Program-made: the position numbers and the translations under genes
Assembly (NCBI GenBank): GCA_029959365.1
Contig: JASCOA010000001.1
Span: 1 to 64,000, forward strand
Origin: Microbacteriaceae bacterium PS02343
Lineage (GTDB): Bacteria > Actinomycetota > Actinomycetes > Actinomycetales > Microbacteriaceae
Direction of reading: 5' to 3'
Length of the DNA: 64,000 bases
Notes under the pieces: model-generated
The model's database searches: none
Seen by the model: only the letters and a program-made list of their open reading frames with translations
Told to the model about the DNA's origin: nothing
Shown: piece by piece, positions 5 to 13,498 of the stretch
How the letters are laid out: each line of letters starts with the position of its first letter
Numbering within the stretch: the stretch's first letter is position 1

Positions 5-1699
5 CTACGGCGACGGCCTCGCGGCCGGCCGCGTGATCGCCGCGATCTGGGCGTTCTTCGCCTCGGGCGCCCGGATCGAGGACTTCTCGCCGGGCCCGGC
101 GAGCCGCACCGCGGCGCAGGCGAACAGCAGCGGCAGCCCGAGCCAGAACAGCAGCGTCGAGGGCAGCATGGCCTCGCTCAGCACGCGCTGATCCCCGAGG
201 GCCACGGCCCAGAAGTGGATCCAGCCGGCGAGCATCGCGAAGACGGTGGCGAACCCGAGGCTGCGGCTGCGCACCGAGTGCTGACGGGTGAACGCCAGCG
301 AGAGCGCCACGAGGATCCCCGCGAACTGCAGGCCCGGCACGATGAGCGGCACCGCGAAGAGCAGCGGGCTCGAGGTGGCGACCGGGGTCCAGCGCGGATC
401 CTGCACGGGCTCGCCGTCGCCCACCGGCAGCATGGTGCTGCCGCGCCGCTGCTGCACCGGCTGCGAGAGCGCGGCGAGGCCGCGGTCGGCGACGGCCACC
501 ATCCGCTCCGGGTGGGTCGCCTGGAAGCGGATGAGGTCGTCCACCCCGATCCCGGCGAAGGCCGGGTCGGCGAGCACGGCGCCGGCCTGCACGTCGGTGA
601 TCCAGCGCCCGCTCGCCTCGATCGCCCGCTCGGGCAGGCCGAACCACTCGACGTCGGCGGCCGGGTCGGGGCTGCTCGGCAGGATGGTGCCGAAGATCGT
701 GGCGTAGACCGCATCCGCTCGCACGCGCTCGAGCGACGTGCCCGCCTGGGCGACCGCCACGGCGATGAGCGCGAGGGCGGCGAGCAGCGAGGGCACCCTG
801 CTGGCGAGCGTGCGCGCGAGCTCGCGGCCCCGATCGCCGCGCAGCGCGCGGCCGCTCTCGCGGGAGCGGCGCTCCTCGGCGTCGCGCATCCAGGGCAGCA
901 GCACGAGTCCGGCGACGAAGCCGGGCAGGAACGCCAGCAGCGCGGGCGAGGTCGCCAGCGCCGCCGCGCCGAGCAGCACCCCGAGCACGGTCGCGGCGAT
1001 GCCCCGCGGCGGCACGTCGAGCGTCGTCACCCGGTCGGCCCAGCCGCCCCAGAGGATCAGCAGCGCGACGACGCCGGCGAGCACCGCGAGCAGCACGGTG
1101 CCATCGAGGTCGGCCGAGACGAGGAAGTCGGCGAAGACGCCGTCGAGCAGCACGATGCCGAAGAGGGCGGCCACCACGAGCCGGAACGGCACCGCACCGG
1201 GCAGGTAGCGGATGAGCGCCACCGTCAGCAGGCCCAGCACGACCGCGAGCAGCACGCCCAGCAGCCGCACGTCGAGCACCCCTCCGCCCAGCAGCCGGGC
1301 GAGCGCGACGAGCAGGTGGTACGGCGAGAACGGCCAGAGCGGGGATTCCGGGCAGGCGGCGCCGGTCCAGTCGGCGGGCGACCAGATCGGGAAGACGGCG
1401 CCGGCGGCGTCCGCGGTGAACGGGCGCTCGTTCGCGAGTCCGGCCGAGCAGAGCAGGCGGAAGCCGTCGCCCGCATCCGCCATGCCGACCGCTGAGGGCA
1501 CGAAGAGGCGCAGCAGCGCGAGACCGGTCAGCACCGCGCCGCCGAGCACCGCCGCGACCCAGATGCGCGGCCGGCGCTCCGAGCGGCCCGGGCCGAGCAG
1601 CGCGAAGGCCGCGGTGATGCGCTCGACGGCGACGATGCGGCGACGGGTGCTCTGACGCTGCTCGTGCTTCGCCCTGCGGCGGGGCTCAGGCTGCGACAT
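5..1699 (-). CDS. polytopic membrane protein of the exosortase operon, function unknown
   Basis: I do not recognise a named family. After a basic N-terminus of about 45 residues come many hydrophobic segments (roughly ten or more), a long first extracytoplasmic loop containing ADAGDGFR and two Cys, and a large polar loop around residues 320-430. This layout recalls GT-C glycosyltransferases or flippase-like proteins, but I see no decisive catalytic motif. It is the last gene of the minus-strand unit with the GT2 and the exosortase and overlaps the lipoprotein stop by 14 nt. An upstream ATG at 1705 is possible; the ATG at 1699 has GGTGG six nt before it. The ORF is complete (stop TAG at 5-7). 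Confidence 0.75.
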   Translation of the reverse strand: MSQPEPRRRAKHEQRQSTRRRIVAVERITAAFALLGPGRSERRPRIWVAAVLGGAVLTGLALLRLFVPSAVGMADAGDGFRLLCSAGLANERPFTADAAGAVFPIWSPADWTGAACPESPLWPFSPYHLLVALARLLGGGVLDVRLLGVLLAVVLGLLTVALIRYLPGAVPFRLVVAALFGIVLLDGVFADFLVSADLDGTVLLAVLAGVVALLILWGGWADRVTTLDVPPRGIAATVLGVLLGAAALATSPALLAFLPGFVAGLVLLPWMRDAEERRSRESGRALRGDRGRELARTLASRVPSLLAALALIAVAVAQAGTSLERVRADAVYATIFGTILPSSPDPAADVEWFGLPERAIEASGRWITDVQAGAVLADPAFAGIGVDDLIRFQATHPERMVAVADRGLAALSQPVQQRRGSTMLPVGDGEPVQDPRWTPVATSSPLLFAVPLIVPGLQFAGILVALSLAFTRQHSVRSRSLGFATVFAMLAGWIHFWAVALGDQRVLSEAMLPSTLLFWLGLPLLFACAAVRLAGPGEKSSIRAPEAKNAQIAAITRPAARPSP

Positions 1700-2495
1700 C
1701 GGCATCCACCGAGACGCAGCGGAGGGTGAGGTTGCCGTTGGCCTCCTGGCGCAGCACGCCGGCGACGCCGCTCGAGGCGCGCAGGCCGAGCCCGATCCAC
1801 TCCTGCACGGTGGCCGCGCAGTCGCGGATCGCCAGGCCCGTGTCGGGCGCGGCCTCCTGGCGCAGCCAGTGGTTCACGTCGCGGTACTGGTGCGGCTGAT
1901 CGCAGCGCACGTCGACGGTGTCCTCGGGGCCGCTCAGCAGCGGGTCGGCGAGCGGGCCGTCGGGGGCGTAGCAGCGGGTGAGCGCATCCGCTCGTGCGGC
2001 GTCCGCCGCGGCCCCGGCGAGCGAGGCGGTGTGCACGAGCGGATCGAAGGCGCCCGCCTCGTCGGCGACCGTCACGAGGTCGCAGCGCACCCATCGCGCG
2101 CCGTCCTGCCACTCGTCCTCGGTGGGCAGCCACGGCACGGTCCAGACGCCGTAGAGGGCCTGCCGCGCATGCGCGGCGAGGTAGCCGCGCACCATGCCGG
2201 GCGGGCACGCCTCCGCCGCGATCGCCTCGCGCTCGCCGAGCACGGGGTAGGCGTCGCGATCGGCGTCGAGCTCGCCGACGAAGTAGGTCTCGGCGCTGTG
2301 CTCGGCGGTGCAGTCGACGACGGTCGAGCCGTCCTCGAGCACGGCGAACTGCTCGGGTCGGTCGATCAGCCGGCAGTCGCCGATGGCGGGCGCGGCCGTC
2401 GGCTCGACGGGGTCGGGAGCGGGCGTGCAGGCGGCGAGGGTCGCTGCGAGCAGGGTCCCGACCGCCAGCAGCATCCCCACCCGGCGACGGTTCAG
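1686..2495 (-). CDS. septum-formation-like lipoprotein
   Basis: This is a secreted lipoprotein of about 269 residues. A basic start (NRRR), a hydrophobic stretch and the lipobox LAAC with Cys23 mark a lipoprotein signal. The mature part has two repeats of the pattern V-x-C-x2-x-H with acidic neighbours (VDCTAEHSAE and VRCDQPHQ), typical of the septum-formation (PF13845-like) domain of actinobacteria, whose biochemical role is unknown. Start choice: a CTG at 2495 lies 5 nt after GAGGAG and overlaps the exosortase stop as CTGA, which keeps the NRRR signal charge. A GTG at 2480 or ATG at 2474 is the alternative. It sits between exosortase and the polytopic protein, so a cell-envelope role linked to sorting is inferred. 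Confidence 0.7.
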   Translation of the reverse strand: MNRRRVGMLLAVGTLLAATLAACTPAPDPVEPTAAPAIGDCRLIDRPEQFAVLEDGSTVVDCTAEHSAETYFVGELDADRDAYPVLGEREAIAAEACPPGMVRGYLAAHARQALYGVWTVPWLPTEDEWQDGARWVRCDLVTVADEAGAFDPLVHTASLAGAAADAARADALTRCYAPDGPLADPLLSGPEDTVDVRCDQPHQYRDVNHWLRQEAAPDTGLAIRDCAATVQEWIGLGLRASSGVAGVLRQEANGNLTLRCVSVDADVAA

Positions 2496-3106
2496 CGGGA
2501 CTCCTCGGCGGCGGCGGCCCGCTCCCCGCGGATCGAGGCGATCCAGCGGCGCGGGGGCTGGAGGCGCCCGGTCGACGAGACGACCAGCAGCAGCACGATG
2601 GCGAGCGCCGACGCGAGGATGACGAGCACCGAACCGACGTAGTAGTGCATGATGTCGAACCCGACCTCGCCCCAGAGCTGCCAGGCGGCGGCGATGAGGA
2701 TGAAGCGCACCGTGTTCGCGCCGACCGCGACGGCCAGGGCGAGCAGGCCGCCGAGCAGGGTCCAGTCGGCCCGCTTGCGGCCGAGCAGCACGAGCACGCC
2801 GGTGAACACGAGGATCGGGCCGATGAGCACGAGCGAGGTGCAGACCGGCGTGATCAGGAAGCCGTGGATCGCATCCGTGCCGATGCCGGTCCAGACGAGG
2901 TGGCCGATCGAGCTCGTCGAACCGCTCGTGAAGACGTCGAGCACCGTGGCGACCATCTGCGCCTCCAGGGTGATGGCCGCGTCGGAGAACAGCGCGAGCG
3001 CTGCGGCCGCCGCGACCAGCAGCCCGGCGCCGAGCAGACGGCCGGGCCGGTTGATGCCCTTGGACGCGACCCTGCGGCCGCGCACGTTCTCGATCGTCGC
3101 GCTCAT
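2492..3106 (-). CDS. exosortase/archaeosortase family transpeptidase
   Basis: This is a 204-residue integral membrane protein with the exosortase catalytic triad in order: Cys89 (TPVCTSL), Arg134 (GANTVRF) and His154 (DIMHYY), each next to a membrane helix. Exosortases cleave C-terminal sorting signals of exported proteins and are thought to transfer them to an envelope acceptor, often a glycan. It is short for the family but similar in size to archaeosortase-like members. Its ATG overlaps the stop of the upstream glycosyltransferase (ATGA), which implies coupled translation. The likely substrate is the choice-of-anchor G protein encoded 1.7 kb upstream. I see the triad directly; substrate and acceptor are inferred. 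Confidence 0.88.
   Translation of the reverse strand: MSATIENVRGRRVASKGINRPGRLLGAGLLVAAAAALALFSDAAITLEAQMVATVLDVFTSGSTSSIGHLVWTGIGTDAIHGFLITPVCTSLVLIGPILVFTGVLVLLGRKRADWTLLGGLLALAVAVGANTVRFILIAAAWQLWGEVGFDIMHYYVGSVLVILASALAIVLLLVVSSTGRLQPPRRWIASIRGERAAAAEESR
2501..2506 (-). promoter_or_regulatory. ribosome binding site GAGGAG favouring a CTG start
   Basis: On the minus strand GAGGAG is followed by 5 nt and then CTG, whose last two bases begin the TGA stop of the exosortase. Spacing to the next standard start (GTG at 2480) would be about 20 nt, too long for normal initiation, so this site decides the start of the lipoprotein. Confidence 0.5.
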
Positions 3107-4464
3107 GTCTCCCTCGCCACCAGTCCCGTGCTGCCGACCTCGGCGTTGCGCCGGGTCTTCGACCAGTTCTCGTTGCCGCGCACGAGCCGCACGAGGGCCC
3201 GCACCACGCAGATGTAGTTCTGGTACATGTAGAACCAGTAGCCGAGCCCCCACTTGGCGCTGCGCAGCCAGCTGATGCCCGGTGTCGCATCGCGCCGGTA
3301 GATGAGCACCCAGAAGGCGAACGGCAGGATGCCGGTGAGCAGCACGAGCGGCAGCAGCCACCACGCCGAGACGAAGAACTCGACGATGCCGCCCTGGTTG
3401 ATCGCGCCGGCCGCGGTCATCGCGATGAACGCCGCGGGCCACAGGATCAGGCCGGCCAGCTGCACGAACGGGATGAGCAGGAAGTACGTGGCCTCGAGCG
3501 CGCCGGCGTTGGTGAAGTGCTGCGAGCGGAAGATCTGCGGCAGGTAGCGCGCGCACTGCATGCCGCCCTGGCACCAGCGCACGCGCTGGGTGAGCAGCCG
3601 ACGCGTCGAGGGCAGCGCCTCCTGCTCGACGTAGGTGTCGTGCATGTAGGTGTTGCGGTAGCCGGCGAGGGCCACGTGCAGACCCAGCTCGTAGTCCTCG
3701 AGCAGCGAGCCGTGCCAGGGCTGGCCCGACATCTCGGCGACCTGGTCGAGGGCGGAGAGGCGGCTGAACTGGCCGTTGCCGCCGAGGCCCACCGAGATGG
3801 TGCGCAGCCGCAGGCACTGCATGGCGGCGATGGTGGTGCGGAACTCGATGTCCTGCATGCGCACCAGGTAACGGCCCCAGGCCTGCTTGAGCTTGGGCGC
3901 GCCGCCGTGGATCGGCTCGCGCTCCTCGCGGTTGCTCATCCAGACCGCAGCCTGCGCGGCGCCGACCTCGGGGTCGGCGAAGGCGTTGGCCCCTGAGGCC
4001 TGCTGCAGGGCGTTCGGAGCGAGGCGGCCGTCGGCGTCGACCACGGCGACGATGACCTTGCTGCGGTCGGTCGTGCGCGGCAGCCAGAGGCTCAGGGCCC
4101 GGTAGGCCGCGTTGAGCGCGGCGCCCTTGCCCTGTCGGGCCTCGGGACGGCGCCGCTGCACGAGGTGGACGAACGGATCGGAGGCGGCGGCCGCCTGCAC
4201 GATGGCCGCGGTCGTGTCCTCGCTGTCGTCGTCGATGACCCAGAGGTGCAGCGAGGGGAAGTCGGTGCGCAGCCGCTGGATCGTGCCGCCGATGACGACC
4301 TCCTCGTCACGGCAGGGCACGAGCACGTGCCACTCGAAGGCGGAGGGGTCGCCCTCCGGGTCCTTCTTGCGCAGCAGGAAGGGCACGACGATGAGCAGCA
4401 CGTAGGCCAGGAAGACCACGAGCAGCACGAAGGCGAGCGCCTGGGCGGATTCACTGGCGGGCAT
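3103..4464 (-). CDS. GT2 family membrane glycosyltransferase (processive type)
   Basis: This 453-residue protein has an N-terminal membrane helix (about residues 8-30), a GT-A catalytic domain and three or four C-terminal helices (about 322-420). Visible GT2 signatures are DDD at 78-80, the metal-binding VDADG at 142-146, LLEDYE around 255-259 and QRVRW at 293-297. The last is the Q-x2-RW motif of processive synthases such as cellulose and hyaluronan synthases. It precedes the exosortase with a 4-nt overlap. Glycosyltransferases accompany exosortases in several known systems, so it may build the glycan to which sorted protein is attached (inference). The sugar donor cannot be told from sequence. 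Confidence 0.88.
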   Translation of the reverse strand: MPASESAQALAFVLLVVFLAYVLLIVVPFLLRKKDPEGDPSAFEWHVLVPCRDEEVVIGGTIQRLRTDFPSLHLWVIDDDSEDTTAAIVQAAAASDPFVHLVQRRRPEARQGKGAALNAAYRALSLWLPRTTDRSKVIVAVVDADGRLAPNALQQASGANAFADPEVGAAQAAVWMSNREEREPIHGGAPKLKQAWGRYLVRMQDIEFRTTIAAMQCLRLRTISVGLGGNGQFSRLSALDQVAEMSGQPWHGSLLEDYELGLHVALAGYRNTYMHDTYVEQEALPSTRRLLTQRVRWCQGGMQCARYLPQIFRSQHFTNAGALEATYFLLIPFVQLAGLILWPAAFIAMTAAGAINQGGIVEFFVSAWWLLPLVLLTGILPFAFWVLIYRRDATPGISWLRSAKWGLGYWFYMYQNYICVVRALVRLVRGNENWSKTRRNAEVGSTGLVARET

Positions 4465-4508
4465 GGCGGGCGCTCCCAGGGGGAGTGCTCATCCGCCAGA
4501 GTGCGCTG

Positions 4509-4534
4509 CGGAACGGGCTCCCGACCCCGTTCCG
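4509..4534. terminator. hairpin, 9-bp stem
   Basis: Arms CGGAACGGG (4509-4517) and CCCGTTCCG (4526-4534) are perfectly complementary around an 8-nt loop. It stands between the 4546-4575 hairpin and the GT2 gene and could be part of a double terminator or leader structure. Confidence 0.45.
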
Positions 4535-4545
4535 GAACGCCGCGA

Positions 4546-4575
4546 AGACCGCGGTGCCGGTGGGCACCGCGGTCT
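4546..4575 (-). terminator. strong hairpin terminator, 13-bp perfect stem
   Basis: Arms AGACCGCGGTGCC (4546-4558) and GGCACCGCGGTCT (4563-4575) pair perfectly around the loop GGTG. It lies 25 nt past the stop of the LAATG microprotein and before the GT2 gene. It probably ends the anchor-protein transcript and separates it from the glycosyltransferase-exosortase operon. There is no U-tract, as is common in high-GC actinobacteria. Confidence 0.7.
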
Positions 4576-4599
4576 CCGCGTGACGTGCTGACTGCTGGT

Positions 4600-4785
4600 T
4601 CACGCTCGGCGCGGACCCTGTTGGAGCGGTGCCCGTCGGCGGTCCTGGGCCCGGACGGCGTACCTCACGAGGAGGTAGCCGACCACGACGGCCACGATGG
4701 CGAGCACGAAGATCCAGCCGAAGGGGAGGACGACGCCGGTGGCGGCGAGGGCACTCGCGAAGGATGCCGACCGTCCGGTGTACAT
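4600..4785 (-). CDS. 61-residue membrane microprotein with LAATG sortase-like motif
   Basis: The protein is little more than a sorting signal: a 12-residue N-terminus, LAATG at residues 13-17, one hydrophobic helix (about 18-40) and a strongly basic tail (RYAVRAQDRRR). This matches the C-terminal signal of class E sortase substrates (LAxTG, helix, positive tail). There is no preceding signal peptide or ectodomain. The positive-inside rule predicts N-out topology, which would expose LAATG outside. It starts 11 nt after the stop of the choice-of-anchor G gene with AGGAG 5 nt before its ATG, so the two are co-translated. A class E sortase is encoded at 15257-15964. It could instead be a simple membrane anchor peptide with a chance motif. 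Confidence 0.7.
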   Translation of the reverse strand: MYTGRSASFASALAATGVVLPFGWIFVLAIVAVVVGYLLVRYAVRAQDRRRAPLQQGPRRA

Positions 4786-4796
4786 GGGGACTCCTC

Positions 4797-6194
4797 TCAG
4801 GCCGTGGCGGTGGCGAGCGCGGGGCTCGCAGTGCGACGGCGGTTGACCAGGAACCAGGCGCCGCCGCCGAGGGCGATGGCACCGACGATGAGCATGCCCG
4901 CGATGCTGGCGATCGGCACACCGCTGATGCCGGCGTTCGGGCCGACGGTGGCGTTGGCCAGCGCGACGGTGGCGAGCGAGCCGTCGGCACCGAGGCCGAT
5001 CGTCAGGGCGTTCTGCGTGAAGCTGCCGTCCGGGTTGGTGATCTTGTTGTTGACCTTCAGCTGGGCCAGCGACGAGACGACCGGGGCGAGCTCGGCGAGC
5101 ACGGTGTCGAGCAGCGGGTCGATCGAGTTGGTGACGATGCTGTTCAGCGAGGTGGTGAGCGCCTGGATCACGTTGGTGACCGGGGTGAGCCCCCCGAGGA
5201 CGCCGCCGATCAGGCCGCCGAGGTTCAAGCCCAGCACGTTGAGCTGGGTGAGATCGAGACCCGCGACCTGGCCCTGCGTCAGGCCGCCGATGGTGCCGTT
5301 GAGGGTGCTGATCGCGCCGTCGACGATCGACGTGACCTCGGCGACGATCGCCTGCGGCAGGTACTGCAGCAGGTCGGTGCCGGGAGCCAGGTCGTTGAGG
5401 CTGTCCACGCCGGCCGCGGCGAGCAGGTCGTCGAGCGTGATGACGACCGCGCCGTTCGCGTCGATCGGGCTGGCCACGCCGAGCGCTCCGAGCACCGGGG
5501 CGAGCAGGGTGTTCACCTGGCCGAGCAGCTGCTGCAGCTCGGGGCCGGTGACGCTGATGTTGAGGCCGGCGATGTCGTACTGGCCGGTAGCGCCGCCGGT
5601 GGGGTCGCCCGGGTCCTCGCCGTTGCTGCCCTGCACGGCGCTGGCCGCGAGGGCGCTGACGCCGATGCTGAGGTTCAGCGCGTCACCGAGGCCCAGGGCC
5701 GAGGTGCCGACGTTGATGGTGGCGGCCTGACCGGCCGAGGGGCTGCCGATGTTGCCCGCGGTGACGGTGTCGACGCCCACGAGGCTCGGTGCGCTGCTGA
5801 CGGTGCCGGCGAAGGCGGTGGAGCCGCCGTTGCTGGCCGCCTGCGCGTACTGGCCGACCGCGCCGAGGCGGATGATGCCGTTGTCGCCGAGCAGCGGGAT
5901 GTTGCCCGAGGTGAGCGTCAGCGCGCTGAGCACGGTCGCGTCGAGCGGCGTGTTCTCGGTGACCGTCGTCGTGCCGTCGGGGTTCACCGCGACGGCGCCG
6001 GCGAGCTCGAGGATGTCGTCGATCGGCTGGCCGCCGAGCGTCACGTCGACGAGCTGGCCCTGCGCCTGCGAGACGACGGGGCCGGTGGTGGCCGCCGAGG
6101 CGGCGGAGGGTGCGAGCAGCACGGCAGCGGTGCCGAGAGCGACGGCCGCGGCGGAGCCGCCGAACCGCTTGCGCGAGAAGGGTGCGAGAGACAT
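4797..6194 (-). CDS. choice-of-anchor G-like secreted surface protein
   Basis: This is a 465-residue exported protein. Residues 1-35 form a signal peptide (basic start, hydrophobic core, ASA before ATT). The body is low-complexity, rich in Gly, Ala, Leu, Val and Asn, with the LTQGQ/LNVLGLNLGGL style of the actinobacterial 'choice-of-anchor G' family. The C-terminus is a sorting-type tail: a helix at about 428-450 followed by NRRR and a short Ala/Thr end, with no LPxTG or LAxTG motif. This fits an exosortase substrate. It is first in a two-gene unit with the LAATG microprotein; AAAGGA stands about 8 nt before the ATG. The family name is from general resemblance, and the sorting route is inferred. 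Confidence 0.75.
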   Translation of the reverse strand: MSLAPFSRKRFGGSAAAVALGTAAVLLAPSAASAATTGPVVSQAQGQLVDVTLGGQPIDDILELAGAVAVNPDGTTTVTENTPLDATVLSALTLTSGNIPLLGDNGIIRLGAVGQYAQAASNGGSTAFAGTVSSAPSLVGVDTVTAGNIGSPSAGQAATINVGTSALGLGDALNLSIGVSALAASAVQGSNGEDPGDPTGGATGQYDIAGLNISVTGPELQQLLGQVNTLLAPVLGALGVASPIDANGAVVITLDDLLAAAGVDSLNDLAPGTDLLQYLPQAIVAEVTSIVDGAISTLNGTIGGLTQGQVAGLDLTQLNVLGLNLGGLIGGVLGGLTPVTNVIQALTTSLNSIVTNSIDPLLDTVLAELAPVVSSLAQLKVNNKITNPDGSFTQNALTIGLGADGSLATVALANATVGPNAGISGVPIASIAGMLIVGAIALGGGAWFLVNRRRTASPALATATA

Positions 6195-6352: not shown

Positions 6353-6931
6353 TCAACCTTGCGCCAGCAGTGCCACCCACGCCCCGACGAGCATCGCCGG
6401 GGCGTACGGGATCCGGCTGCGCAGCGTCGCCCGGCGCGCGAGCAGCAGCACGAGCCCGGCGACCGCACCCGCGATGAAGCCGGCGAGCACGCCCACGAAC
6501 CAGGTCTGCCATCCGCTCGCGCCGAGCACTGTGCCGAGCGCGAGCGCGAGCTTGACGTCGCCCATGCCCATCGCCCGGCGGGTCAGCAGCGCGGGCGCGA
6601 GGTAGACCGCGAACATCGCGACCGCGCCGAGCACCGCGCCGACGATGCGCAGCGGCTGCGCCTCGATCACGGCGGATGCGGATGCGGTCGTCAGCAGCAC
6701 GAGCGCGAGCGGCAGCACGAGCCGGTTGGGCACGATGCGCCAGCGCAGGTCGATCGCGGCGAGCAGCGGTGTGGCGGGGGCGAGCGGCAGAAGTGGGACG
6801 ATCGTCCAAGTCGCGCCGAATCTCGCCGCGACCAGCGCGATCAGACCGGCGGCCGCGAGCGCCATGGTGGCCCAGGCGCCCATGCCCCAGGCCCGGAGCC
6901 AGGGGGTTCGGGGCGGCGCGGGAGAGTCCAT
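6353..6931 (-). CDS. prepilin peptidase of the Tad pilus (A24 family)
   Basis: This 192-residue polytopic aspartic protease carries the two active-site motifs of family A24: AAIDLRWR with its Asp at the end of an early helix, and MGMGDVK with the GxGD Asp. It lacks the N-terminal methyltransferase region of type IV pilin peptidases, as expected for TadV/CpaA. It would cleave the Flp leader just before the conserved Glu-rich processing site of the pilin encoded divergently at 7111. The ATG is 7 nt after a TAAGCT -10 element, so the message is probably leaderless. Confidence 0.88.
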   Translation of the reverse strand: MDSPAPPRTPWLRAWGMGAWATMALAAAGLIALVAARFGATWTIVPLLPLAPATPLLAAIDLRWRIVPNRLVLPLALVLLTTASASAVIEAQPLRIVGAVLGAVAMFAVYLAPALLTRRAMGMGDVKLALALGTVLGASGWQTWFVGVLAGFIAGAVAGLVLLLARRATLRSRIPYAPAMLVGAWVALLAQG

Positions 6932-6938
6932 GCGCGCA

Positions 6939-6944
6939 AGCTTA
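6939..6944 (-). promoter_or_regulatory. -10 element TAAGCT, leaderless prepilin peptidase transcript
   Basis: TAAGCT on the minus strand ends 7 nt before the ATG at 6931, so the predicted start of transcription coincides with the start codon. No Shine-Dalgarno is present. Confidence 0.55.
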
Positions 6945-7007
6945 GAAGTCGAGCCCCTCTCGACTTCTCGGGCCGGCGCCCCATAATGGGGGGCTAGACG
7001 GCAACAC

Positions 7008-7022
7008 TTGAGCGGGGCTCAA
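7008..7022. promoter_or_regulatory. inverted repeat TTGAGC-GGG-GCTCAA upstream of flp
   Basis: Perfect 6-bp arms flank a 3-bp centre, about 90 bp before the flp start and about 75 bp from the divergent peptidase start. The AT-rich AAATTATG follows. This is a candidate operator for pilus expression; the regulator is unknown. Confidence 0.4.
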
Positions 7023-7032
7023 ATTATGCCGT

Positions 7033-7076
7033 CGAGGGTCCCTTGCCCTCGCCGCTCCTCCGTTCGGGTGAGGAGC
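7033..7076 (+). promoter_or_regulatory. structured leader of flp: two hairpins
   Basis: Hairpin 1 has arms CGAGGG (7033-7038) and CCCTCG (7046-7051). Hairpin 2 has arms GCTCCTC (7054-7060) and GAGGAGC (7070-7076). They lie 35-78 nt before the flp ATG and may stabilise the pilin mRNA or control its translation. It does not match any riboswitch class I know. Confidence 0.4.
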
Positions 7077-7110
7077 ACTCACGCATCATTTCGGGAAGTC
7101 GGGACACACC

Positions 7111-7323
7111 ATGCTTGCTCTCTACACGCGCATCTCCACCGAGCTCCGCTCGCGGCTCAGCCGCGACGAGGAGGGGGCTACGGCTGTCGAGTACGGACTC
7201 ATCGTTGGCGTTATTGCGGTCGCTCTGATCGCCGCGCTCGCTGTTCTCGGACCGCAGATCGGCACCCTGTTCGGCAACGTCACCGACAGCATCAGCCCGG
7301 CGGGAGTGGTCACTGCCCCGTAA
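7111..7323 (+). CDS. flp: Flp/Fap-type pilin
   Basis: This is a 70-residue major pilin. A basic leader of about 20 residues ends in the processing region DEEGATAVEYGLIVG, with the hydrophobic assembly helix directly after it, the hallmark of Flp pilins. After cleavage by the prepilin peptidase it polymerises into thin adhesive Tad pili. Codon use is clearly less GC-biased than in neighbours (GTT, ATT, GCT are frequent). It has its own structured leader and is followed by a strong hairpin, which fits a separate abundant transcript. Confidence 0.92.
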   Translation: MLALYTRISTELRSRLSRDEEGATAVEYGLIVGVIAVALIAALAVLGPQIGTLFGNVTDSISPAGVVTAP

Positions 7324-7341
7324 GGCAGCTGACTTCTAGCA

Positions 7342-7371
7342 ACGGACGCCGGACCTTCCCCCGGCGTCCGT
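7342..7371 (+). terminator. hairpin between flp and tadE, 11-bp perfect stem
   Basis: Arms ACGGACGCCGG (7342-7352) and CCGGCGTCCGT (7361-7371) pair around the 8-nt loop ACCTTCCC. It begins 19 nt after the flp stop. It is probably a partial terminator or 3' stabiliser that keeps pilin mRNA in excess over the assembly genes. Confidence 0.7.
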
Positions 7372-7402
7372 CCGCCATCTCTCGCGAGGGGGTGAGTCGC
7401 TG

Positions 7403-7834
7403 ATGCGACTCCGACGCGCACGGCTCCGATCGGGTTCGGAGGAGGGCGCTGCAGCCGTCGAGTTCGCGCTCGTCGTGCCGCTGCTGCTGACCCTGCTCTT
7501 CGGCATCATCGAGTTCGGTTTCGCCTACAACGCCCAGATCCTCGTCACGAACGCGGCCCGCGAGGCCGCCCGCGAAGTCGCGGTGAACGACTCCGCGACG
7601 CAGAGCAGCGTCGATGCGGTGGCCGAGGCGGCGGTCGCCGCCGTCGATTCCCAATTCACCGGGTTCACCGTCACGGTCTCCCCCGCGCTCGACGGTTCGA
7701 CCACGACACCGGCCTGCACGCCCGGCAGCCGCATCACCGTGACCGCCGCGGCCCAGCGCCCGCTGCTCTCCGGCTTCCTACCGCTCGAGCCCTTCTCGCT
7801 CACCGGGAAGGCGACGCGACTGTGCGCCGGGTGA
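7403..7834 (+). CDS. TadE-family minor pseudopilin
   Basis: This 143-residue protein has a basic N-terminus, the TadE signature EEGAAAVEFALVVPLLLTLL with the hydrophobic pilin-like helix, and a small ectodomain with Cys residues near 105 and 140. TadE-like proteins are processed by the same peptidase as Flp and take part in pilus assembly. GAGGGGG lies before the ATG. The next gene begins inside its 3' end (12-13 nt overlap). Confidence 0.88.
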   Translation: MRLRRARLRSGSEEGAAAVEFALVVPLLLTLLFGIIEFGFAYNAQILVTNAAREAAREVAVNDSATQSSVDAVAEAAVAAVDSQFTGFTVTVSPALDGSTTTPACTPGSRITVTAAAQRPLLSGFLPLEPFSLTGKATRLCAG

Positions 7835-9135
7835 CTCGCAGGCTGCTCCGCGAGCAGCAAGGGGCCTCGACGGTCATCGTCTCGCTCTGCATGACCGCAC
7901 TCCTGATCCTCGTCGCACTCGTCGTCGACATCGGGGCGACCGCGGCGCGCAAAGCGCAATTGCAGGACGCGGCCGACGCAGCTGCCCTCACGATCGCCCA
8001 GCGTTGCTTCGACGACTGGGATGCGAAGGTGCAGAGCTCGACGAATGACCTCGTCGGCTGCGATGCAACCGTGCTCGCGAGCGCCAAGATCGAAGCGATC
8101 GCGGTCGCGAACGACCACTTCGGCAACGGTGCTGATCCGCTCGCACTGAGCTTCCCGGAGGCGCCGTCGCTCAACTCGGTGGCTCTCGCCGTGACGAGTT
8201 CGCAGGATGCGCTGTTCTCCTTCACCACGGGCACCGACGAGTTCGGCATCGCCGTTGACGCGGTCGCCGAGTGGCAGCTGCCCGCGATCGCCGTGCCCCT
8301 GGCCCTGAACTCCTGTGTGCTCGACCCGACCACGCCGGAACAGGTCGCCTTCGTGGGAAGCGGCATCTACGACGGTGTCGGCACGCTGCTCGACGCCGTG
8401 CTGAAGGTGCTCGACACCCTCAGCGATCTGGGCAACCTCCCCGACTTCCTCGATGGGGTGCTCGCCTGCGGCACCAATGTCGCAGCCGGCGGATGGCTGA
8501 CCAATAGCGGCACCGAGAACTGCGAGTACGCGCCCAACCTCTTCACCACGCTCGGCGCAGTGCTCAACCGACTGTTGCCTGTCGATCGCGGCTGCATCGA
8601 CGCGCTCGACGGCGCGCTCGGCAAACGCATCATCGTTCCCGTCTACAACAATTCGACCTTCGGGCTGCTGGGCCAGCTGGCCGGTCAGGCCGAGCCGCTC
8701 GGCTATGCGGAGATCCTGCTGACCGGTTACGAGTTCGAGACAGCGCTCGGCAGCGTGCTCAGCGGCCGCCAGAGCGACCATCTCGGCGCGGACACTCCAG
8801 GCTGCCGGGATCGCCTCTCGTCGCTGCTGAACCTCGGCACCTCAGGCGCTGTCGGGCTCACCAATGCAGCCATCGATGCCATCGATCTGCTCGTCAGCCA
8901 GGTCGCCGCTGGCCTCGCAGGCCTGATCCGTCCCGTGCTCCTGCTGCTGAAGGCGGCGATGGCCCTTACCGGCGGCGTCACGGACGGCGTGCTCATACCA
9001 GTGCTCGATGCCACGCTCGGCGTCGTGACGAGTCTGCTCGGCCTCTGCCAGGGCGTGCAGGGGTACGTCCTCAACCCCCTCATGACCGAGGAGGAGGCCA
9101 CCGCGGCCCTCACTCCGTACCGCCTGGTCGCGTAG
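7822..9135 (+). CDS. TadG-like secreted pilus-associated protein
   Basis: This 437-residue protein begins with the Tad helix motif QQGASTVIVSLCMTAL followed by VDIGATAARKAQLQDAADAAAL, the classic start of TadG/Rv3660-type proteins. The long C-terminal half is rich in Leu, Gly and Val with several amphipathic helices and about ten Cys residues, with no clear known domain. It starts at GTG 7822 (GGGAAGG 10 nt upstream); GTG 7831, overlapping the TadE stop as GTGA, is the alternative. Its codon use is less GC-biased than that of downstream tad genes. Confidence 0.8.
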   Translation: MRRVTRRLLREQQGASTVIVSLCMTALLILVALVVDIGATAARKAQLQDAADAAALTIAQRCFDDWDAKVQSSTNDLVGCDATVLASAKIEAIAVANDHFGNGADPLALSFPEAPSLNSVALAVTSSQDALFSFTTGTDEFGIAVDAVAEWQLPAIAVPLALNSCVLDPTTPEQVAFVGSGIYDGVGTLLDAVLKVLDTLSDLGNLPDFLDGVLACGTNVAAGGWLTNSGTENCEYAPNLFTTLGAVLNRLLPVDRGCIDALDGALGKRIIVPVYNNSTFGLLGQLAGQAEPLGYAEILLTGYEFETALGSVLSGRQSDHLGADTPGCRDRLSSLLNLGTSGAVGLTNAAIDAIDLLVSQVAAGLAGLIRPVLLLLKAAMALTGGVTDGVLIPVLDATLGVVTSLLGLCQGVQGYVLNPLMTEEEATAALTPYRLVA

Positions 9136-9216
9136 GCCCGCCCGAACTAGAAGTACCCGCATCCGCTGCCGGCGAATCCAGCCGTACGACCCCGAGAAAC
9201 CGAGAGAACGCGCCCC

Positions 9217-9930
9217 GTGAGAACCCGCATCATCGCCCTCGTCATCGCCGCCGTGCTCGCCATCGTGGGCGGCGTCACGCTGGTCACCTACGTGCGCAGC
9301 GCCGACCAGCGGGCGGCCGGCGACGCCGAGCTCGTCGATGTGCTGGTGGTGCAGCAGGAGGTTCCGGCCGGCACCGCCGCGGCGCAGCTGGCGCTCGTGA
9401 CCTCGGTGGACCGGATCCCCGAGGCCTTCCTCGCCGAGGGCGCCCTGACCAGCCTCGATCAGCTCGAGGAGCTGCAGGGGCAGGTGACCAGCGCCGCGCT
9501 CGTGCCCGGCGAGCAGGTGATCGCGGCGCGACTCGCCAGCCCGGGCGACTTCGTCGGCGGCGGCGGCTCGATCCCCGTGCCCGAGGGCCTGCAGGAGATC
9601 TCGTTGTCGCTCGACGCGCAGCGGGTGCTCGGCGGGCGGCTCGCGGCAGGTGAATACGTCGGCGTGCTCGTGACCGTGCCCGAGACGCAGGACAGCCCCG
9701 CGCAGACGTTCCTGCGCTACGACCAGCTGCTCGTCACCGCCGTGGGCGGCGCCTTCGCCGAGGACGGCTCGGCCAGCGGCGCCGTGACCGTGACCCTCGC
9801 GGTGGAGCGCGACGAGGCGCAGGCGATCGTCTTCGCCCAGGAGACCGCGACGCTCTGGCTGAGCAAGCAGGCCGAGGGCCTCGAGAGCACCGGCGGCGCG
9901 CCCGCCACCCGCACGGACCTGATCCCATGA
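9217..9930 (+). CDS. cpaB: Flp pilus assembly protein CpaB/RcpC
   Basis: This 237-residue protein has an N-terminal membrane helix and an SAF-type domain. VVQQEVPAGTAA and VPGEQVIAARLA match the two halves of the CpaB/SAF fold, followed by the periplasmic RcpC-like domain (LDAQRVLGGRLAAGEYVGVLVT). CpaB stabilises the Tad secretion channel or cell-wall passage. The GTG start is used. The 3' end overlaps the next gene by 4 nt (ATGA), so the rest of the operon is translationally coupled. Confidence 0.85.
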   Translation: MRTRIIALVIAAVLAIVGGVTLVTYVRSADQRAAGDAELVDVLVVQQEVPAGTAAAQLALVTSVDRIPEAFLAEGALTSLDQLEELQGQVTSAALVPGEQVIAARLASPGDFVGGGGSIPVPEGLQEISLSLDAQRVLGGRLAAGEYVGVLVTVPETQDSPAQTFLRYDQLLVTAVGGAFAEDGSASGAVTVTLAVERDEAQAIVFAQETATLWLSKQAEGLESTGGAPATRTDLIP

Positions 9931-11084
9931 GCCGCATCGTCCTCGTCGGCCCCGACGTGACGCTCGAGCACCAGGCACGCCTGCTGCTCGGCGACCAGGT
10001 GCAGTCGATCCCGCCCGGCGCGCCGGAGGCGGTGCTCGCGCGGCTGCTGAAGCTCACCACCTGGCCGCAGCTGATCGTGTTCGGCAGCTACGTCACCGAC
10101 GAGCAGAGCCGGGCACTCGCCCAGACCCTGCGGCGCAGCGTGCCGACCCTCGCGGTCTCCACCGTCGAGCCGACGCTGCCCGCCGAGCTCATCGCCGCGG
10201 GCATCTCGCACGCCCTGCCGGCGAGCGCCGAGCTCGAGGACATCGACGCGCTCATCGTCACCGCCGGCGAGCGCGCCGCCCGCGAGGCCTCGCTCATGGG
10301 CGCCCCGCGCGAGCTGAAGGACCGCGGCCAGGTCGTCGTCGTCACGGCGCCGAAGGGCGGCGTCGGCAAGACGACCATCGCCACCAATGTGGCGACGGTG
10401 CTGGCGGCCGTGCATCCGCATCGCGTCGTGCTCGTCGACCTCGATCTGCAGTTCGGCGACGTCGCCGAGGCGCTCGCGCTGCAGCCGCTGCGCACCATCG
10501 ACGAGGCCGTCGGACCCGCCGCCGCGCGCGACCTGCTGCTCGTCAAGCACGCCCTGACGACGCATCCGAGCGGACTGCTCGTGCTCGCCGCCCCGCTCTC
10601 CCCCGCCGGCGCCGACGGCATCACCGCCCACGAGATCAGCCTGCTGCTGCGCCAGCTCGCCCACGAGTACGCGGCCGTCGTGGTCGACACCTCCCCCGGC
10701 CTCAGCGAGCACACCCTCGGCGCGATCGAGGAGGCGGATGCGGTGATCTCGGTCACCAGCCCCGACATCACGAGCGTGCGCGGCCTGGTCAAGGAGCTCG
10801 AGGTGCTCGCGGAGCTCGACCTGCTGCCCGCGCAGCACCACGTGGTGCTCAACCTCAGCGAGCGCCGCGCGGCCCGCAAGCGCGAGATCGAGCAGGTGCT
10901 CGGGCGCCCGATCACGCACGAGGTGCCGCGCACCGGCGCCGTCGGGCGCTCGACCAACCGAGGGGTGCCCGTCGTCGCCGACACTCCTCGCGACCGCGCC
11001 TCCGCCAAGCTGCGCGAGCTCGGCCGCCAGATCGCCGACCACGCCGACCCCGCCCGCCGCTCCAAGCCCAAGAAGGTGCGCTGA
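9927..11084 (+). CDS. TadZ/CpaE pilus-localising ATPase
   Basis: This 385-residue protein has an N-terminal receiver-like domain (about 1-120) without an obvious phosphoacceptor Asp. A ParA/MinD-type ATPase follows with the deviant Walker A APKGGVGKTT near residue 145 and VDLDLQFGD behind it. TadZ/CpaE proteins position the Tad machine at a cell pole or membrane site. Overlaps of 4 nt upstream and 1 nt downstream place it firmly in the operon. Confidence 0.87.
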   Translation: MSRIVLVGPDVTLEHQARLLLGDQVQSIPPGAPEAVLARLLKLTTWPQLIVFGSYVTDEQSRALAQTLRRSVPTLAVSTVEPTLPAELIAAGISHALPASAELEDIDALIVTAGERAAREASLMGAPRELKDRGQVVVVTAPKGGVGKTTIATNVATVLAAVHPHRVVLVDLDLQFGDVAEALALQPLRTIDEAVGPAAARDLLLVKHALTTHPSGLLVLAAPLSPAGADGITAHEISLLLRQLAHEYAAVVVDTSPGLSEHTLGAIEEADAVISVTSPDITSVRGLVKELEVLAELDLLPAQHHVVLNLSERRAARKREIEQVLGRPITHEVPRTGAVGRSTNRGVPVVADTPRDRASAKLRELGRQIADHADPARRSKPKKVR

Positions 11085-13498
11085 TGCCCAGTCTCTCCGA
11101 GCGCCTGCAGGCCGCCCGCAACCGCCGGGCCCAGGCCGAGCGACCCATCGACCCCTCCGTCGTCGCGGCGCAGCCGGTCGGCACCGGCGCCGTGCGACCG
11201 CCCCGTGGCCGCCGCGCCTCGGCCGCCGAGCCGGATGCCCTGCCCACCTCGCCCGTCGAGGCCCGGTTCACCGGACCGCTCGCGACGGCGCCGAGCCCCC
11301 CGACCGCGGAGCCGTCGTTCGAGCAGCTGCTCGCCGAGCCGGAGGCCGTCGCCGAGGCGGAGGCCGTCGCCGAGGCGGAGGCCGTCGCCGAGGCCGCGCC
11401 GGCCTCGCCCGAACCCGCGGTGCTCGTCGAGCCGGACCTCCTGGCCGAGCCCGAGTCGGCGGGCGCCGCGGCCCCGATCGTGCAGGACCTCGACCCCGAG
11501 ACCGATCGGGCTGCGACCGGGATCGGCGAGCTCGGGGCCGACGACGAGACCGTCGCCGAGGATGACGAAGCAGACGACGAGCCTGCTGCCCCGGAAGCCA
11601 CCGAGGACGAGCAGCCGAACGACGCGCAGGTCGAGGAGGCGACCGGATCGGAGGCCGATGCGGCTCCCGAGGCCGAGCCCGACGACGAGGACGCGCTCGA
11701 CACGGCACCGGACGGGGACATCGTGGCGGAGGACGCTGCGGAGGACGAGACAGCAGCCGAGGCCCCCGACGAGGAGGCCGACGCGTTCGATCCGCTCGCC
11801 GCGCCGCTCGACGCGGAGGACCCGCCGGCCGGAACCGCCGGCGACGACCCCGCCGCCGACGGCGCCGAACCCGCCTGGACCCCCGAGTGGGACTCCGCAG
11901 AGGGCCCCGGCTGGGGCTCCGCCGCCGAGCCCGAGCCGAGCTGGCTCGCGGAGGCGCGGGAGGAGGCGAGCGCGACCGCTCCCGCATCCGCTGCGCCGAT
12001 GGACGGCCAGCCGTCCTGGACCGCCGACCCCGAGTTCGAGCGCATCCTCGCCGGCCACGACGCCACCGAGCTCGTCGACCCGGCGCTCGTGAGCCCGCAG
12101 CCGGTGCAGCCCGTCGTGCTGCCCGCATCCGCCCCGTCGACGCCGCCCGTGGAGGATCTCTACGACGGCGCGGCCCTGGCCGTGATCCCGCGCAGCGACG
12201 ACGGCGGGGGCGACGAGGTGCAGCGGGTGCGCGAGGAGGCGAGCGACCTCTTCGCCGAGCGCATCGGCACCCGGCTGAACGACCCGAGCCTCAGCGAGGG
12301 CGACCTCGACACGATGGCGCGCCGCGAGCTGGCCTCGATCATCGACGAGCGCGGGCAGACCCTCAGCGAACGGGAGCGCTTCGCGCTGATCCAGGAACTC
12401 GCCGACGAGGTGCTCGGGCTCGGTCCGATCGAGCCGCTGCTCGACGACGAGAGCGTCAGCGAGGTCATGGTCAACGGCCACGACCACATCTACGTGGAGC
12501 GCCGCGGGCGCATCCAGCGGGTGCCCACGAGCTTCCGCTCCGAGGAGCGGCTGCGCCGGGTGATCGAGCGGATCGTGACCCGGGTCGGGCGGCGCATCGA
12601 CGAGTCCTCCCCGCTCGTCGACGCCCGCCTGGCCGACGGCTCGCGCGTGAACGCGGTGATCCCTCCGCTCGCCATCGGCGGCTCCTCGCTGACGATCCGC
12701 AAGTTCGCGGCCGAGCCGCTGCGGGCCCGCGACCTGGTGAGCCTCGGCACGGTGAGCGACGACATGGTGCAGCTGCTCATCGCCTGCGTGCGCGCCCGCC
12801 TCAACGTGATCGTCTCCGGCGGCACCGGCACGGGCAAGACGACGCTGCTCAACGTGCTGTCGTCGTTCATCCCGCACGACGAGCGCATCATCACGATCGA
12901 GGACGCGGCCGAGCTGCAGCTGCAGCAGGAGCACGTGGTGCGGCTCGAGAGCCGGCCCGCGAACCTCGAGGGCCGCGGCGAGGTCACGATCCGCGACCTC
13001 GTGCGCAACGCCCTGCGCATGCGGCCCGACCGCATCGTCGTCGGCGAGAGCCGCGGCGGCGAGAGCCTCGACATGCTGCAGGCTATGAGCACGGGCCACG
13101 ACGGCTCCCTCACGACCCTGCACGCCAACTCGCCGCGCGACGCGATCGCCCGCCTCGAGACCCTCGTGATGATGGCCGGCATGGACCTGCCGCACCGCGC
13201 GATCCGCGAGCAGATCGCCAGCGCGGTCGACGTGATCATCCAGGTCACCCGGCTGCGCGACGGCACCCGGCGGGTCACGCACGTGAGCGAGATCCTCGGC
13301 ATGGAGAACGACATCGTCACGCTGCAGGACGTCTACCGCTTCGACTTCGGCGCCGGCGTCGACCACTCCGGCCGGTTCCTCGGCAAGGCGCAGCCGACCG
13401 GCATCCGCCCCCGCTTCCTCACCCGCTTCGACGAGCTCGGCGTGCCCTTCGACGCCTCGCTCTTCACGACGGCGGCCGACCGGGCGGACTGGGCATGA
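11084..13498 (+). CDS. tadA: TadA/CpaF secretion ATPase with long acidic N-terminal extension
   Basis: The catalytic core begins near residue 378: the N-terminal CpaF domain (LGPIEPLLDDESVSEVMVNG), Walker A SGGTGTGKTT near 580, an Asp/His box region, and Walker B RMRPDRIVVGE near 645. It powers Flp pilus assembly as a hexamer. At 804 residues it is nearly twice the usual TadA length. The extra about 360 residues are acidic and low-complexity (Glu, Asp, Ala, Pro), including three copies of an 18-bp repeat encoding EAVAEA, and are probably disordered. The core looks fully active. It overlaps tadB by 4 nt. Confidence 0.92.
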   Translation: MPSLSERLQAARNRRAQAERPIDPSVVAAQPVGTGAVRPPRGRRASAAEPDALPTSPVEARFTGPLATAPSPPTAEPSFEQLLAEPEAVAEAEAVAEAEAVAEAAPASPEPAVLVEPDLLAEPESAGAAAPIVQDLDPETDRAATGIGELGADDETVAEDDEADDEPAAPEATEDEQPNDAQVEEATGSEADAAPEAEPDDEDALDTAPDGDIVAEDAAEDETAAEAPDEEADAFDPLAAPLDAEDPPAGTAGDDPAADGAEPAWTPEWDSAEGPGWGSAAEPEPSWLAEAREEASATAPASAAPMDGQPSWTADPEFERILAGHDATELVDPALVSPQPVQPVVLPASAPSTPPVEDLYDGAALAVIPRSDDGGGDEVQRVREEASDLFAERIGTRLNDPSLSEGDLDTMARRELASIIDERGQTLSERERFALIQELADEVLGLGPIEPLLDDESVSEVMVNGHDHIYVERRGRIQRVPTSFRSEERLRRVIERIVTRVGRRIDESSPLVDARLADGSRVNAVIPPLAIGGSSLTIRKFAAEPLRARDLVSLGTVSDDMVQLLIACVRARLNVIVSGGTGTGKTTLLNVLSSFIPHDERIITIEDAAELQLQQEHVVRLESRPANLEGRGEVTIRDLVRNALRMRPDRIVVGESRGGESLDMLQAMSTGHDGSLTTLHANSPRDAIARLETLVMMAGMDLPHRAIREQIASAVDVIIQVTRLRDGTRRVTHVSEILGMENDIVTLQDVYRFDFGAGVDHSGRFLGKAQPTGIRPRFLTRFDELGVPFDASLFTTAADRADWA
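11342..11395 (+). repeat. 18-bp tandem repeat, three copies, in tadA
   Basis: GAGGCCGTCGCCGAGGCG occurs at 11342-11359 and 11360-11377, and at 11378-11395 with one change at the end. It encodes EAVAEA units in the acidic extension. Copy number may vary between strains without breaking the frame. Confidence 0.8.

Follow-up and report, generated by a model that had tools for sequence, protein, structure and literature searches.

An Actinobacterial Exosortase Locus with One Candidate Cargo, a Processive-Type Glycosyltransferase, and a Small LAxTG Protein

The Operon and Its Parts

The 64,000-nucleotide (nt) stretch of DNA considered here (hereafter the window: positions 1 to 64,000 of contig JASCOA010000001.1, from the assembly GCA_029959365.1 of Microbacteriaceae bacterium PS02343) opens with an operon that encodes an exosortase, its putative substrate (hereafter the cargo), and genes predicted to act in glycan synthesis. 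On the minus strand, between positions 5 and 6194, the genes are transcribed in the order cargo, mini-protein, glycosyltransferase of family 2 (GT2), exosortase, Septum_form lipoprotein, and WsfD-like protein, and the 3′ end of a wecB gene faces them at the contig edge:

1..110, plus strand: 3′ part of wecB (UDP-GlcNAc 2-epimerase), convergent with the operon; remainder on contig C34
5..1705, minus strand: WsfD-like polytopic hexose transferase (NF051875, 147.6 bits, cut-off 80)
1686..2495, minus strand: Septum_form-domain lipoprotein (PF13845, 58.5 bits; lipobox LAATLAAC)
2492..3106, minus strand: exosortase, nearest XrtS (204 residues; Cys89, Arg134, His154)
3103..4464, minus strand: processive-type GT2 glycosyltransferase (DxD, ED, QRVRW; NF053846, 630 bits)
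4600..4785, minus strand: mini-protein (61 residues: Met-Tyr, Gly/Ser-rich stretch, LAATG, a single transmembrane [TM] helix, Arg-rich C-terminus)
4797..6194, minus strand: cargo, choice-of-anchor G surface protein (signal peptide; tail GVPIAS-TM-NRRR; NF033766, 119.7 bits)
4800..4937, minus strand: C-terminal sorting signal of the cargo (NAGISGVPIAS, TM helix, NRRR), from the tail alignment

The genome of the window is coded G000 in our comparisons, its same-genus relative G072, and the corresponding locus of Arenivirga flava L079. Contig C34, likewise of G000, and the start of the window align side by side on the latter (C34 to L079:5114; the window from L079:5002). The original prediction, made from the letters of the DNA, had described core genes overlapping at start and stop, and this is the case for GT2 and exosortase (4 nt) and for the lipoprotein, whose start is either TTG at 2495 or ATG at 2474, and the WsfD-like protein, but not for cargo and GT2, which lie 332 nt apart. 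That gap is occupied by the mini-protein gene, which starts 11 nt past the cargo stop with GAGGAG upstream; it was missing from the original prediction, yet among the partners of the exosortase only the GT2 is more constant. Existing family models match every part of the locus except the mini-protein of the window, and a promoter and terminator scan of the locus was uninformative. Because the gene set recurs across Actinomycetia, chance can be excluded as its origin.

The exosortase exceeds the curated cut-off of TIGR04178 (32.5 bits against 23) and, among the XrtP, XrtR, and XrtS models, scores best with XrtS (NF033767, 143.8 bits, or 144.3 in the genome search, just under the cut-off of 145); its counterpart in G072 reaches 142.3 bits with this model. 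About 1 bit short of that cut-off, it is best filed, from its profile scores, as near XrtS; the relatives in Lentzea are XrtP (272 bits) and that of G063 is XrtR (188 bits). The predicted residues Cys89, Arg134, and His154 are exactly in place and invariant among intact relatives, and the Cys/Arg/His set together with Asn131 is retained in 66 of 69 relatives, the remaining three being the degenerate enzymes described below. The AlphaFold2 model is helical and polytopic (mean confidence, pLDDT, 91); a fold comparison with the PDB gave no informative match, and a sequence search against it none. The processive-type GT2 was equally well anticipated: it matches NF053846, the “XrtP-associated glycosyltransferase,” far above the cut-off of 520, with Q293, R294, R296, and W297 invariant in the alignment of its relatives; the GT2s show weak similarity to PgaC.

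A Small LAxTG Protein Accompanies Exosortase and GT2

A total of 80 actinobacterial loci were gathered with the GT2 alignment, a selection bias that we checked with two draws of genomes not selected by glycosyltransferase, 200 from the family and 385 from the class. The 80 loci come from Microbacterium, Curtobacterium, Arthrobacter, Psychromicrobium, Leifsonia, Occultella, Lentzea, Actinokineospora, Kutzneria, Amycolatopsis, Kitasatospora, Streptomyces, and others, and divide into 58 with an intact exosortase, 3 with a degenerate one, and 19 with none detected. The mini-protein is found in 57/58, 0/3, and 1/19 of them, respectively, hence in 57/58 loci with an intact exosortase versus 1/22 without (Fisher test, 4.7e-17, uncorrected for shared ancestry). 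The draws agree with this picture. In the family, an exosortase occurs in eight genomes plus one weak match, always next to a GT2 (8/8; six above the NF053846 cut-off, two at 262–268 bits); in the class, it occurs in 11 genomes, nine strong and two weak, and each of the eight strong exosortases besides that of the window shares its locus with both a GT2 and a mini-protein. The mini-protein thus stands beside every clear exosortase (8/8 in the family draw, 9/9 in the class draw) and is absent from the two weak class-draw cases (G232 and G239). In the loci of these two (L261 and L262), the exosortase is of a more distant type and the GT2 only weakly similar, and that of G232 has wecB and a PIG-L-like (LmbE) gene and no LAxTG mini-protein.

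The three degenerate exosortases (L153, L154, and L155, at about 11400–11900, in the Microbacterium oxydans group) have lost the Cys region and changed His to Leu; their loci keep GT2 and wecB and contain neither a mini-protein nor a recognizable cargo, a case in which the entire module has decayed naturally. The lipoprotein and the polytopic protein, which the original prediction had placed in the locus, do match PF13845 and the WsfD family and belong to the same operon, but they lie mostly outside 2492–6194, where they had been located, and only 8 of the 58 exosortase loci carry them: considered as core parts, they were rejected, and they are regional extras. The WsfD-like protein, judging by its family name, presumably decorates glycan at the outer leaflet.

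Across the loci, we collected 62 distinct mini-proteins of 45–74 residues, each with one TM helix and an Arg/Lys-rich end; Tyr occurs at positions 2–4 in 60 of them, and [LIVG]AxTG in 56. The mini-protein of the window has the layout of a class E sortase substrate, with LAXTG, TM helix, and basic tail (ALAATG...RAQDRRR), and scores 20.5 bits with NF058583 (LAXTG_small_WW), far under the cut-off of 65, which mini-proteins of Lentzea (94 bits) and Actinokineospora (86 bits) exceed. That model covers one subgroup of the mini-proteins, and its listed description states neither function nor partner. A chance open reading frame was considered and rejected, the mini-protein holding the same position across genera. 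Its profile also finds it in two genomes that had not been used for training (G060, E 2e-11; G063, E 1e-8), and nonsynonymous variation is lower than synonymous variation (pN/pS components of 0.21/0.36 between the window and A. flava; median 0.12/0.28 in Lentzea).

A strictly exosortase-specific mini-protein was likewise rejected, since it adjoins other GT2s in exosortase-free genomes. Because 13 of the 14 mini-proteins from such genomes directly adjoin a GT2 similar to PgaC/IcaA or NodC (QxxRW is present in the five checked), the GT2 is, by this arrangement, probably the primary partner of the mini-protein; the 13 pairs represent roughly six lineages and therefore fewer than 13 independent events. 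The processive-type GT2 is the constant partner, to which one large subset adds the exosortase. The fourteenth case, in G442 (LAMTG, L279:6776–6949), has neither GT2 nor exosortase beside it. Elsewhere, loci L086/L209 of G098 and L208 of Amycolatopsis kentuckyensis combine a GT2 of the NF053846 family with a mini-protein, with the exosortase undetected; the G098 locus also encodes an acyltransferase and very large repeat proteins of immunoglobulin-like (Ig-like) type.

The GT2 Is Linked to wecB with or without an Exosortase

The wecB gene lies less than 6 kb from the GT2 in 51/58 exosortase loci and in 17/19 exosortase-free ones. G000 has a single copy of it (TIGR00236), as does every one of the eight exosortase genomes in the family draw; it adjoins the locus in six of these eight, to which the contig ends add G000. 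Since WecB produces UDP-N-acetylmannosamine (UDP-ManNAc) and its gene accompanies the GT2, a ManNAc-containing product is the economical guess. The original prediction had further suggested that one enzyme builds a glycan or lipid acceptor for the exosortase. A GT2 does sit beside every clear exosortase of the two draws, but the same GT2 family also occurs where there is none, namely in 17 Streptomyces loci that have GT2 and wecB with neither exosortase nor mini-protein and, above the NF053846 cut-off, in two exosortase-free genomes of the family draw (G098 and G100); the GT2 is therefore not dedicated solely to making that acceptor. In L084 (G063), L086, and L162, membrane proteins resembling SGNH or acyltransferase-3 proteins, identified by eye, adjoin the GT2, which suggests possible acylation of the glycan in some lineages.

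Unrelated Cargos Share One Tail Motif

The predicted secreted protein with a C-terminal helix and NRRR tail is a surface protein with a signal peptide and a choice-of-anchor G domain (NF033766, cut-off 45, profile positions 2–190 of 283), the only such match in G000. In exosortase genomes, the tail of this domain family reads SVGPNAG-xxVPxxS-TM-RRR, whereas it ends in LAHTG-TM-RRR in the exosortase-free G007 and G152, and four further exosortase-free members end in LAYTG, LAFTG, MAFTG, or LALTG (such tails are readable for part of the short loci). Over the family draw, choice-of-anchor G domains occur in 74/200 genomes and sortases in 185/200.

The anchor-G protein is not the defining partner of the enzyme, since other loci have in its place unrelated cargos with only the tail motif in common. 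This motif reads P-[VILM]-x-[DNSGAE]-(P) ahead of TM-RRR (for instance VPIASI, VPVAGP, VPMVDP, SPVIDP, APIADP, IPMASG, GPMISP, and TPLVAP), and its Pro is the same in all 17 aligned tails, which belong to several unrelated types of cargo. A search with the tail profile returned a single strong match in each XrtS genome tested (48.6 bits in G000, 41.9 in G072, 58.6 in G053, 55.8 in G060, and 56.1 in G101, that is, 41.9–58.6 bits), the next-best matches scoring about 25 bits or less, mostly over the TM part; the single cargo of the original prediction is thus upheld. G087, with an XrtR-type exosortase, has no cargo that we could see within the locus, and its tail-profile matches are unlinked Ig-like proteins (L285, L295, and L302, with the tails LPVINPAIAGG...RRRMA, LPVINAAIAGG...RRRMA, and TPVIAPVIGAG...RRKRA), so that this enzyme probably has several substrates. 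On account of these tails, the motif is predictive outside its source loci, and the number of substrates appears to vary by branch.

On the other side of the cargo, at 6353–11084, lies a Tad/Flp-pilus-type locus whose genes were named by eye:

6353–6931, minus strand: prepilin peptidase-like protein
7111–7323, plus strand: Flp-type pilin
7403–9135, plus strand: TadE-like proteins
9217–11084, plus strand: CpaB/CpaE-like proteins

A Proposed Route from Export to the Cell Surface

On this basis, we propose, with a probability of about 0.5, that the operon is a dedicated single-substrate exosortase module placed on a glycan-synthesis module, with transfer of the cargo to the surface and a ManNAc-containing acceptor as the likely outcome. 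The cargo would be exported through its signal peptide, after which the TM-RRR tail at its C-terminus would tether it in the membrane. By analogy with the exosortase/archaeosortase and sortase families, Cys89, assisted by Arg134 and His154, would cut near GVPIAS and form a thioester with the cargo, which would then be handed to a surface acceptor and no longer span the membrane. Gene linkage points to a ManNAc-containing glycan or its carrier as the most likely acceptor, for which the processive GT2 would use UDP-ManNAc from WecB and which the WsfD-like protein would decorate. From the same linkage, the mini-protein would work with the GT2, most likely as a peptide, bound to membrane or wall, on which the glycan is held or started, and it might be fixed to peptidoglycan by a class E-type sortase present in such genomes.

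Several points weigh against this proposal. The ManNAc assignment comes from gene linkage only, and the predicted structure of the cargo (pLDDT 53) is too poor for a fold search. The Streptomyces loci imply that the product of the GT2 family has another use. As for the mini-protein, about 5 of the 62 distinct sequences lack the Thr of LAxTG, a point against the sortase step, and two have no Tyr2 (MSG...), which makes Tyr a weaker candidate for the glycan site. A sortase gene, tried as a further member of the locus, was rejected, with one match only (L129) among the 58 exosortase loci, which likewise counts against the sortase step.

The occasional loss of Thr would also suit a mini-protein that serves the GT2 synthase as an accessory subunit, needed for polymer synthesis or export and neither cleaved nor linked to anything, as PgaD and IcaD are the small membrane partners of the poly-GlcNAc synthases PgaC and IcaA. 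Such a role, which we regard as possible though doubtful, would fit a protein found beside a processive GT2 with or without an exosortase, and beside GT2s that in exosortase-free genomes resemble PgaC/IcaA or NodC. It fits less well with the arrangement of motif, TM helix, and Arg, which is that of a sorting signal (the cut-off of NF058582, for LAVTG sortase-dependent proteins, is passed in Lentzea and Actinokineospora), with a conserved outer N-terminal peptide rich in Gly after Met-Tyr, for which a mere TM subunit would have no need, and with the Streptomyces GT2s of the same family, which manage without a mini-protein.

It is unlikely, in our view, that the exosortase instead attaches the cargo to a phospholipid while GT2, wecB, and mini-protein make an unrelated surface polysaccharide that is merely co-regulated. 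In its favor, the substrates of ArtA in Haloferax volcanii carry a lipid anchor at the processed C-terminus (PMC7157517), and in PEP-CTERM systems EpsH sits in exopolysaccharide loci, yet its disruption left exopolysaccharide production unaffected (PMC1569441). GT2 and wecB also occur together without an exosortase. However, the presence of GT2 and mini-protein in every clear exosortase locus of the two draws is tighter than co-regulation needs, and no lipid-head-group genes of the PssA/PssD type were noticed among the listed neighbors, for which no profile search was made.

A more specific form of our proposal, which we consider improbable, takes the mini-protein of about 60 residues as the peptide anchor of the polysaccharide: the processive GT2 would build the polymer at or beside its outer N-terminus, a class E sortase would fix the LAxT end to peptidoglycan, and in a subset of lineages the exosortase would couple a single dedicated surface protein to this scaffold. 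It is very unlikely that the exosortase only trims the cargo and releases it to the medium or capsule without transfer: the literature that we found shows no acceptor for any bacterial exosortase, but the same anchor-G domain bears a sortase signal where the exosortase is absent, which suggests retention on the cell. Least probable of all is that the mini-protein itself accepts the cargo at its outer N-terminus, a class E sortase then linking LAxT to peptidoglycan, for although it constantly adjoins the exosortase, has an N-out topology by the positive-inside rule, a flexible Gly-rich N-terminus, and an LAxTG signal, and although sortases are widespread among the related genomes (three copies in G000), mini-proteins beside GT2s in exosortase-free genomes speak against cargo acceptance as a general job, Thr is lost in some exosortase loci, and we know of no precedent.

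Relation to Known Systems

The locus falls among the XrtP, XrtR, and XrtS systems (NF012139, NF012138, and NF033767), with which it shares the catalytic residues, the XrtP-associated GT2, and the anchor-G cargo; as listed, these family definitions include neither the mini-protein partner nor the common cargo-tail motif nor the wecB linkage. In the open-access literature, we found no study of this actinobacterial branch, and no description of the near-constant mini-protein, its pairing with a processive-type GT2, or the common cargo signal; descriptions elsewhere are possible.

With the PEP-CTERM/EpsH systems, the locus has in common a Cys-Arg-His membrane enzyme of transpeptidase-like type, tripartite C-terminal signals, and linkage to polysaccharide genes (PMC1569441). 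It differs from them in its monoderm host, its compact exosortase of 204 residues, its usually single cargo, and its LAxTG mini-protein, and the cargo signal is VPxxx(P) here and PEP there. With a microbacterial actinobacterium related to Arenivirga as host, a GVPIAS tail, and no PEP motif, it does not belong to the PEP-CTERM system. Archaeosortases belong to the same TIGR04178 superfamily, and a comparable cut and transfer chemistry has been proposed for archaeosortase A, in which a thioester on the active-site Cys would be resolved by a lipid amine, with archaetidylethanolamine as the proposed lipid (PMC7157517). The cargo tails VPVAGP and VPMVDP also resemble the VPXXXP-CTERM signal of ArtB, here compared by model name. 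The exosortase of the window differs from archaeosortases in its linkage to GT2 and wecB, and no PssA/PssD-type lipid genes were noticed near it.

The mini-protein has the LAxTG-TM-Arg layout of proteins anchored by class E sortases, SrtE being specific for LAXTG (PMC5148588), but unlike the substrates of these enzymes, it has almost no mature domain and no signal peptide, its Thr is not strict, and its locus lacks a sortase. Finally, PgaC/IcaA with PgaD/IcaD likewise join a processive GT2 to a small membrane partner, from which the present case differs in that the small protein has a single TM helix with LAxTG and that the wecB linkage suggests ManNAc rather than GlcNAc.

For the search for the acceptor of bacterial exosortases, the locus offers a minimal set: a single exosortase with a single cargo, together with one GT2, one mini-protein, and wecB. 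Since culturable organisms such as Arenivirga flava, Compostimonas suwonensis, Curtobacterium, and Microbacterium carry it, mass spectrometry of just one protein could be used to look for the acceptor. Should the mini-protein indeed be the peptide anchor of the polysaccharide, the system would be a new means by which a monoderm cell retains both polysaccharide and protein, and would provide a defined acceptor for a bacterial exosortase. The pairing of LAxTG mini-protein and processive GT2, whether or not an exosortase is present, is a separate and testable clue to how actinobacteria assemble or anchor their surface glycans.

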